From Rhodothermales bacterium (lineage in GTDB: Bacteria > Bacteroidota > Rhodothermia > Rhodothermales > VXPQ01), in the NCBI GenBank assembly GCA_022825385.1, contig JAJDWX010000010.1:1-38014 (forward strand): a DNA stretch of 38,014 bases, written 5' to 3'. The position numbers were made by a program, and so were the translations under genes. How positions within the stretch are numbered: position 1 is the stretch's first letter; each line of letters starts with the position of its first letter. Under the pieces are notes generated by a model. That model made no database searches. It worked only from the letters and a program-made list of their open reading frames with translations, and had not been told where the DNA came from. This document shows, one piece after another, positions 17,759-34,237 of this stretch.

Positions 17759-17835
<77 letters not shown>

Positions 17836-17921
17836 TTTTATATTTCCGGCGCTTTCGCGTTGTCAACGCGCATCAGGGCGCGGTAGTGCGACCAGCTCAG
17901 GTCGGAATGGAAGACAGTGGC

Positions 17922-18038
17922 GAATTCAGTACCCACTGGGTACTGTTTTTGACTATTGCCCAATTCTTTCCCCGCTGGGAAAAGATTCTCTTGTTGTCGC
18001 AATTCTCTACCCACTGGGGAGAGAATCTTGTGCTGGTG
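17922..18038. repeat. Three tandem 39-bp hairpin units
   Basis: The cores ACCCACTGGG (17931-17940), CCCCGCTGGG (17970-17979) and ACCCACTGGG (18009-18018) are spaced exactly 39 bp. Each is flanked by arms that differ in sequence yet pair with each other: CAGT/ACTG in unit 1 (8-bp perfect stem), CTTT/AAAAG in unit 2 (one extra base), and ATTCTCT/AGAGAAT in unit 3 (7-bp outer stem, one mismatch, 3-bp inner stem). Units 2 and 3 also share AATTCT before and GAATCTTG-like sequence after the core. Arms that change together while the spacing and centre are kept suggest selection on base pairing. Confidence 0.8.
17927..17950 (+). terminator. Possible intrinsic terminator of tRNA-Pro
   Basis: The first unit of the array forms an 8-bp perfect stem (CAGTACCC / GGGTACTG) with a three-base ACT loop, directly followed by five thymines. 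It lies 91 bp beyond the tRNA 3' end. It could end the tRNA transcript, although the run of Ts is short. Confidence 0.45.
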
Positions 18039-18169
18039 AAAGTTGCGCCCGTTCGGCACAGCAAACCCAATGAGCGCCCACCCGTTTTCCCGGAAACCAT
18101 TTCCCGCCTTGCCCTTATTATATAACGAACAGCCAACCGGATAACGCGCATTGCGGCGCGGTCTCTTTC

Positions 18170-33571: not shown

Positions 33572-34237
33572 TCAGAAAGGCAGATCGTCGTCTACGTCGT
33601 ATTCGTTCTCCTCGTCCGCATCGTATGCGCTCTTTTCGTCCTCTGGCGCAGATGCAATCTCTCTTGTGCCCCGGCATTCCGGGTAATCGGAACAGCCCCA
33701 AAAATCGTTGCCTGCATTAGGACCTTTTTGGGCCGTGCGGCGAACCATTCCCGAACCGCAATCCGGGCAATCGGGCGTATCGGCCGCCTTCTCCGAGGTA
33801 GATGCAATGTCCCGAGTGCCTGTGCATTCAGGATAATCGGAGCAACCCCAAAAATCGTTGCCTGCGTTGCGACCCGTGCGGGCCGTGCGGCGAATCATTC
33901 CCGAACCGCAATCAGGACAATCGGGCGCGTCGTCGTCTACATCGTATTCGTCGGCGTCGTATGCGCTCTCGCCATTCTCCGTCGCAGATGCAATGTCTCG
34001 CGTACCTCTGCATTCTGGATAATCGGAGCAACCCCAAAAATCGTTGCCTGCGTTGCGACCCGTGCGGGCCGTGCGGCGCACCATCCCCGAACCGCAATCC
34101 GGGCAATCGGGGGCATCGTCCTCCTCGTCGTATTCATCCGCGTCGTCCAGATCTTCCGCTTCGTCTCCATCGTCCCAGGCAGCCTCGTCGTCGTCCGCAT
34201 CTGGCTCGTCGTCGAACATGGATTCCCAATCCGGCAT
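33572..34237 (-). CDS. Acidic protein with three topoisomerase-type zinc ribbons
   Basis: The 221-residue protein contains three nearly identical C4 zinc ribbons of the kind found at the C-terminus of topoisomerase I. Cysteine sets are 45/48/70/76, 107/110/132/138 and 157/160/182/188, each within CPDCGSGM ... FWGCSDYPEC. The ribbons are joined by very acidic linkers, and an Asp/Glu-rich N-terminal stretch (~9-43) precedes them. No topoisomerase catalytic domain is present. The ATG at 34237 (MPDWESMF) lies 19 bp after folA stops. Such ribbons bind single-stranded DNA in topoisomerases; the acidic linkers could instead mean a protein or histone-like partner. The function is unknown. Confidence 0.8.
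   Translation of the reverse strand: MPDWESMFDDEPDADDDEAAWDDGDEAEDLDDADEYDEEDDAPDCPDCGSGMVRRTARTGRNAGNDFWGCSDYPECRGTRDIASATENGESAYDADEYDVDDDAPDCPDCGSGMIRRTARTGRNAGNDFWGCSDYPECTGTRDIASTSEKAADTPDCPDCGSGMVRRTAQKGPNAGNDFWGCSDYPECRGTREIASAPEDEKSAYDADEENEYDVDDDLPF

Follow-up and report, generated by a model that had tools for sequence, protein, structure and literature searches.

The three tandem hairpins beside a tRNA-Pro gene in this Rhodothermales genome are the relic of a truncated DUF1016/YhcG nuclease pseudogene, and the co-varying palindrome on which they are built is a real, family-wide feature of DUF1016 genes that acts beyond the protein sequence. The family's own protein probably reads this palindrome as a DNA site. 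With moderate confidence, we regard the palindromes as the cognate parS-like sites of a nuclease with a ParB-like DNA-binding domain, which would bind them inside and beside its own gene.

The array beside tRNA-Pro belongs to a decayed DUF1016/YhcG gene

In the window (the whole stretch of 38,014 nucleotides analysed here), three odd-centred inverted repeats are centred at 17936, 17975 and 18014. The exact 39-bp spacing of their cores, described in the initial annotation, was confirmed, and 2000 local Markov shuffles of positions 17881-18050 never yielded three repeats of such strength. Unit 1, AATTCAGTACCCACTGGGTACTGTTTT (17923-17949), is matched at 10 of 12 tested pairs and codes for QYPVGTEF on the minus strand; unit 2, AATTCTTTCCCCGCTGGGAAAAGATTC (17962-17988), is matched at 9 of 12 and codes for LFPAGKEL; unit 3, AATTCTCTACCCACTGGGGAGAGAATC (18001-18027), is matched at 10 of 12 and codes for ILSPVGREL. 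The arms are specific to each unit and self-complementary, as had been described, apart from one internal A.G mismatch in the 18014 stem and imperfect outer ends. The array also folds more strongly than all 200 dinucleotide shuffles on either strand (z of -3.9 for the plus and -3.3 for the minus strand).

Both strands are open and would encode 13-residue repeats, as first reported, and the meaningful strand proved to be the minus strand, where the units form in-frame 13-aa repeats directly before an LSWSHYR motif. These repeats lie in a remnant of a DUF1016_N/YhcG gene (17838-18068, minus strand), truncated at both ends and identified by its reading frame, Pfam and its homologues. The match of the remnant to DUF1016_N (PF17761; E 0.027) covers the expected part of the profile (positions 78-108 of 137), with the LSW[ST]HYR...REFY region that marks the family, and its score falls under the gathering cut-off because the remnant is truncated. 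The C-terminal PD-(D/E)XK nuclease domain (PF06250), present in intact relatives such as that of E. coli, is absent from the window, where the reading frame ends at 17838. The remnant shares 56% identity with an intact homologue of 381 aa from the same genus (L009), the best intact homologues ranging from 49 to 62%, and intact homologues from a phylum-wide search show similar linker repeats just before LSWSHYR in their translations. What had been taken for a weaker fourth hairpin (17890-17903) turned out to be the D-L-S-W-S codons of the LSWSH motif (17887-17904, minus strand), the anchor of the family, as judged by the frame and a comparison of 135 genes; its 4-bp arms pair in just 1 of these 135 homologous genes, and it is not a unit.

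Another Rhodothermales metagenome-assembled genome (L037) carries an orthologous remnant, 85% identical, beside the same tRNA-Pro gene. Its array has one further true unit on the 18030+ side, which the window copy has lost by deletion, together with 10 bp further on. A second DUF1016 fragment with its own palindrome was found in the source genome (L007, contig C11), and no dispersed copies of the array were found there. The window gene is dead, and its palindromes are relics. The tRNA-Pro(CGG) gene (17759-17835, plus strand) is an opposite-strand neighbour that lies outside the element. A tRNA trailer, a small RNA and a terminator, all suggested initially, were rejected: among Rfam families only tRNA matched in the window, and the relatives of the array, which itself sits in a protein-coding gene remnant on the other strand, are coding-strand parts of DUF1016 genes. 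The units differ in their arms and code in frame, and the array lacks the identical repeats and unrelated spacers of a CRISPR array. Elsewhere in the window, a 186-bp tandem duplication (33785-34146) is present in two copies with an 87% match.

A co-varying palindrome is embedded in frame in DUF1016 genes across phyla

Genes of the DUF1016/YhcG family, which combine PF17761 with PF06250 and are listed in PADLOC as a candidate anti-phage system (PDC-S02), share a 27-bp inverted repeat with the consensus AATT-N7-C-R-N-Y-G-N7'-AATT. Each linker repeat is built on this palindrome, and linkerless genes carry a single palindrome at a fixed place before LSW[ST]H. Across 135 clustered genes, a strong palindrome precedes the anchor in 86%, with a mean best score of 9.9 against 4.8 for synonymous shuffles, and within the gene the palindromes are all but confined to -156 to -1 nt from the anchor. 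Nearly all units (187 of 195) fall in a single codon phase; the centre is at exactly -12 in 64 units, and units most often follow each other at 39 or 36 bp. The seven variable positions form Watson-Crick pairs in 147-179 of 187 cases, where 56-106 are expected, and all four pair types are used.

The 195-unit set was chosen for being palindromic, and the fair test is provided by 53 linkerless genes chosen by protein sequence alone. In these genes, pairing around the centre at -12 reached 0.884, against 0.513 for synonymous shuffles; it was 0.345 when arms were swapped between genes (maximum 0.450 of 1000) and about 0.3 when the centre was moved by one base. The arms tested were diverse, with 36 different N7 sequences among 46. 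Carriers include Legionella, Rhodococcus, Curtobacterium, Butyrivibrio, Simkania, Nostoc, Leptolyngbya, Granulicella and the Wolbachia phage WO. In E. coli K-12, yhcG contains three units 39 bp apart, and in another E. coli allele (L129) the arms differ from those of K-12 and are again complementary.

These comparisons bear out the proposal that the co-varying arms reflect a selected structure rather than simple repeat expansion, the support coming from the DUF1016 gene family; the window array itself is decaying. The initial annotation had named many copies with paired substitutions as possible support for a real element; the many relatives were found as DUF1016 genes, not as neighbours of tRNA genes. 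It had also set base pairing and protein conservation against each other as alternatives; the two are not exclusive, since the segment is coding and its pairing exceeds what the protein requires. Because the codons on either side of each unit must pair, the residues they encode change in concert, a striking case of a DNA-level constraint that dictates protein sequence across phyla.

Matched arms could in principle arise with no function at all, since template-switch mutation at quasi-palindromes is known in general to correct one arm against the other and would yield co-variation without selection. However, the palindromes cluster, across phyla, at a single position within one gene family, the rest of the same genes being almost free of them, and some single-step intermediates exist (a T.G pair in L013 between T-A in L011 and C-G in L014); we find this explanation barely credible. 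A hairpin that controls translation or decay of the nuclease mRNA would agree with the strong RNA folding of the array and its location inside the transcript. Against it, isolated stem mismatches comprise 20 G.T and 37 A.C, where synonymous transitions alone predict 317:378 (p 0.14), so that G.U is not favoured in the stems, which favours a DNA-level dyad or hairpin over an mRNA hairpin; copies also occur outside genes. We consider the mRNA reading very improbable, and the constraint on the palindrome looks to act at the DNA level.

Palindromic DNA read in frame inside proteins is also a feature of Rickettsia palindromic elements (RPEs; PMC3733652) and of intragenic CGTC/GTAG REPs (PMC4316617), and a mobile palindromic repeat of this kind might have colonised a tolerant linker. 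The in-frame coding palindromes and their tandem growth, with up to 31 copies beside one gene, resemble RPE and REP behaviour. In contrast to RPEs, which measure about 100-150 nt and enter many unrelated genes, the DUF1016 unit is 27 bp long, is essentially confined to one gene family and keeps a fixed register; unlike REPs, with their GTAG or CGTC heads and high copy number, its consensus has neither head and its copies are few per genome. Moreover, nothing nearly identical to a K-12 unit occurs elsewhere in E. coli, matches to a CAGAC-core pattern in 394 Bacteroidota genomes are limited to DUF1016 genes or a long array adjoining one, and position and register are conserved across phyla. A mobile repeat is therefore an improbable source. 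In REPtrons, an enzyme gene is likewise tied to its own palindromes; however, RAYTs are HUH tyrosine transposases that flank rather than contain the REPs, whereas DUF1016 proteins belong to the PD-(D/E)XK class. No named element of such form was found in the literature searched, in keeping with the initial annotation, and in that literature, which covered few subscription papers, the palindromes in DUF1016/YhcG genes are not described.

The adjoining array just mentioned (L276; G388:C102:12500-18500) comprises 31 palindromes, mostly 78 bp apart, spanning about 2.7 kb immediately next to a DUF1016 gene. Two E. coli loci (L130 and L131) have lost units 2 and 3 of yhcG through an 80-bp deletion, which also shifts the frame. 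DUF1016 genes lie directly downstream of tyrosine recombinase genes on plasmids of P. aeruginosa (L205) and Granulicella (L206), and a Methylomonas plasmid (L114) has a DUF1016 gene within a BREX-1 cluster, flanked by pglX and pglZ.

The predicted protein fold points to a possible ParB-like reader of the site

Homodimeric proteins of the ParB/Noc fold bind short palindromes, and the spo0J gene of Bacillus contains a parS site. An AlphaFold2 model of a linkerless homologue from a phage contig (mean pLDDT 69, pTM 0.43, with the N-domain mostly at 77-92) showed an all-helical N-domain, whose best structural matches were the DNA-binding domains of Noc and ParB, including complexes with palindromic sites. 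The VIA-align Z scores of 8.7-8.3 (residues 25-150, 96-104 aligned, rmsd 2.5-3.2) are below the safe level for helical domains, between which a Z of 8-9 can reflect a common arrangement rather than kinship. The modelled C-domain matched NucS/EndoMS (Z 8.5 and 8.1). Among proteins with solved structures, no convincing sequence relatives were found. A weak match to DciF was gone with a profile search, and the literature searched had nothing relevant under that name.

On this model, the N-domain of the encoded protein, with its predicted ParB/Noc/Spo0J-like fold, would bind the palindrome, each monomer reading one half-site, while the C-domain would act as a NucS/EndoMS-like PD-(D/E)XK nuclease. 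N7 would shift as the recognition helix changes, tandem units would multiply the sites, and the sites would probably serve autoregulation or mark the gene and its island as self. The likeness to ParB/Spo0J-parS and Noc-NBS lies in the predicted N-domain fold; YhcG differs from ParB and Noc in having a nuclease domain in place of a visible CTPase domain, and its putative site spans 27 bp and has a variable N7, where parS has a single conserved sequence of 16 bp.

If the analogy with HTH proteins holds, recognition would fall to the helix that follows the GKGF turn. The inner four letters of N7 (N4) are far more alike within a gene (similarity 0.92) than between genes (0.42), which could result from tandem duplication. 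Among 123 ten-residue windows, GFSVRNLRYM, in the presumed recognition helix, ranked first in predicting the inner N4, with an r of 0.28 that is controlled for overall identity and not tree-aware; the maximum of 100 label permutations was 0.14. In three identity-matched bins the same window ranked 1st, 6th and 7th and other windows correlated too, so that the association between helix and N4 counts as support and not as proof.

The outer three letters of N7 pair but do not track the presumed recognition helix, which leaves room for recognition by shape. In such a scheme, a cruciform or single-strand hairpin would be recognised structurally by the YhcG nuclease, and the arm letters would matter only for pairing. 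The outer letters can also differ among the units of one gene (CGC, CCG and TGG in E. coli), which counts against a site read by sequence, as a single sequence-reading dimer would not demand it. The YhcG nuclease domain has further been likened to YraN-like Holliday junction resolvases (PMC1189080), and deletion of yhcG is synthetic lethal with dnaB, dnaN and parE alleles (PMC2672614). However, the inner N4 hardly varies within a gene and shows an association with the presumed recognition helix, and AATT and CRNYG are conserved in sequence; we thus judge purely structural recognition unlikely, if well worth keeping in mind, and retain the reading of the palindrome as a sequence-read site of the family's own protein.

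YhcG/DUF1016 is a large family without an established function in the papers found, and the conserved site inside its genes offers a concrete handle on what YhcG binds. E. coli K-12 is a natural test case, with three units in yhcG and two more flanking its island.

Stand-alone copies lie at island edges and beside other defence and mobility genes

In K-12, one stand-alone palindrome comes right after gltD and another about 30 bp past yhcG, at the two edges of the variable gltD|gltF-yhcG|nanQ island. In a strain without yhcG (AVS0973), exactly one copy remains between gltD and nanQ; its left flank is like that on the gltD side and its right flank like one on the nanQ side. In viral contigs, 8 of 12 matches fall outside recognisable DUF1016 genes, mostly with matching arms, and adjoin serine recombinase, integrase-linked or SocA-type toxin-antitoxin (TA) pair, AbiEii and RhuM genes, among others. 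In one genus, type I restriction loci have a small palindrome-bearing ORF between hsdM and hsdS whose product resembles the part of DUF1016 that surrounds the palindrome (BLASTP 43% over 35 aa). Half-sites recurring near DUF1016 genes showed no excess (7 vs 5.3).

The arrangement at the K-12 island and in the yhcG-less strain would suit palindromes that serve as recombination or integration sites, that is, as junctions for the insertion, exchange and loss of cassettes holding DUF1016, TA, RhuM or type I restriction genes, and so would the stand-alone viral copies beside recombinase, integrase-linked TA, AbiEii and RhuM genes. In addition, yhcG of E. coli FDAARGOS_401 (L126) is cut short exactly where its third palindrome ends on the 3' side, and next to it comes an unrelated ORF of 101 aa with a transposase annotation. 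Integron attC sites likewise place short inverted repeats at the ends of exchanged gene cassettes, whereas the DUF1016 palindromes sit inside genes. Such a role would leave unexplained both the fixed in-frame position in most family members and the variation of the arms, and L129 and L132 lack the gltD-side copy; we consider it unlikely.

The stand-alone copies may be working sites, remains of genes since lost, or both, and the inferred binding may bring about autoregulation, self-marking or cassette exchange. More tentatively, and with somewhat less than even confidence, we propose coding-embedded DNA sites as a general arrangement, in which the genes of an ancient nuclease family would carry their own variable, self-complementary recognition sequence in frame and beside the gene, site and helix diversifying together, possibly for self-marking or homing of defence islands.

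Several further palindromes were recorded. The hsdM-hsdS ORF, conserved and about 60 aa long, occurs in three type I loci (L244, L249 and L252), where with its palindrome it resembles a miniature DUF1016 segment. Near-identical stand-alone palindromes occur about 40-55 bp past the stop codon of Fic-like_C genes (L246, L245 and L252), and RhuM genes are bracketed by AATT-ended palindromes of two N7 types (L272:4559 and 5825; L275:1221 and 2487). Three copies of another palindrome, GTAGCATCGTTGCARTGCAACGATGCCAC, which starts with GTAG and is possibly a REP-type repeat, were seen in L066 (393, 558 and 736). The pattern AATTN4CCCN3GGGN4AATT matched 82 times in viral contigs, with 9 matches fully complementary at the four variable pairs (about 0.3 expected); these 9 sites (L281, L295, L298, L299, L309, L318, L333, L340 and L345) lie outside recognisable DUF1016 genes, and some may be terminators.
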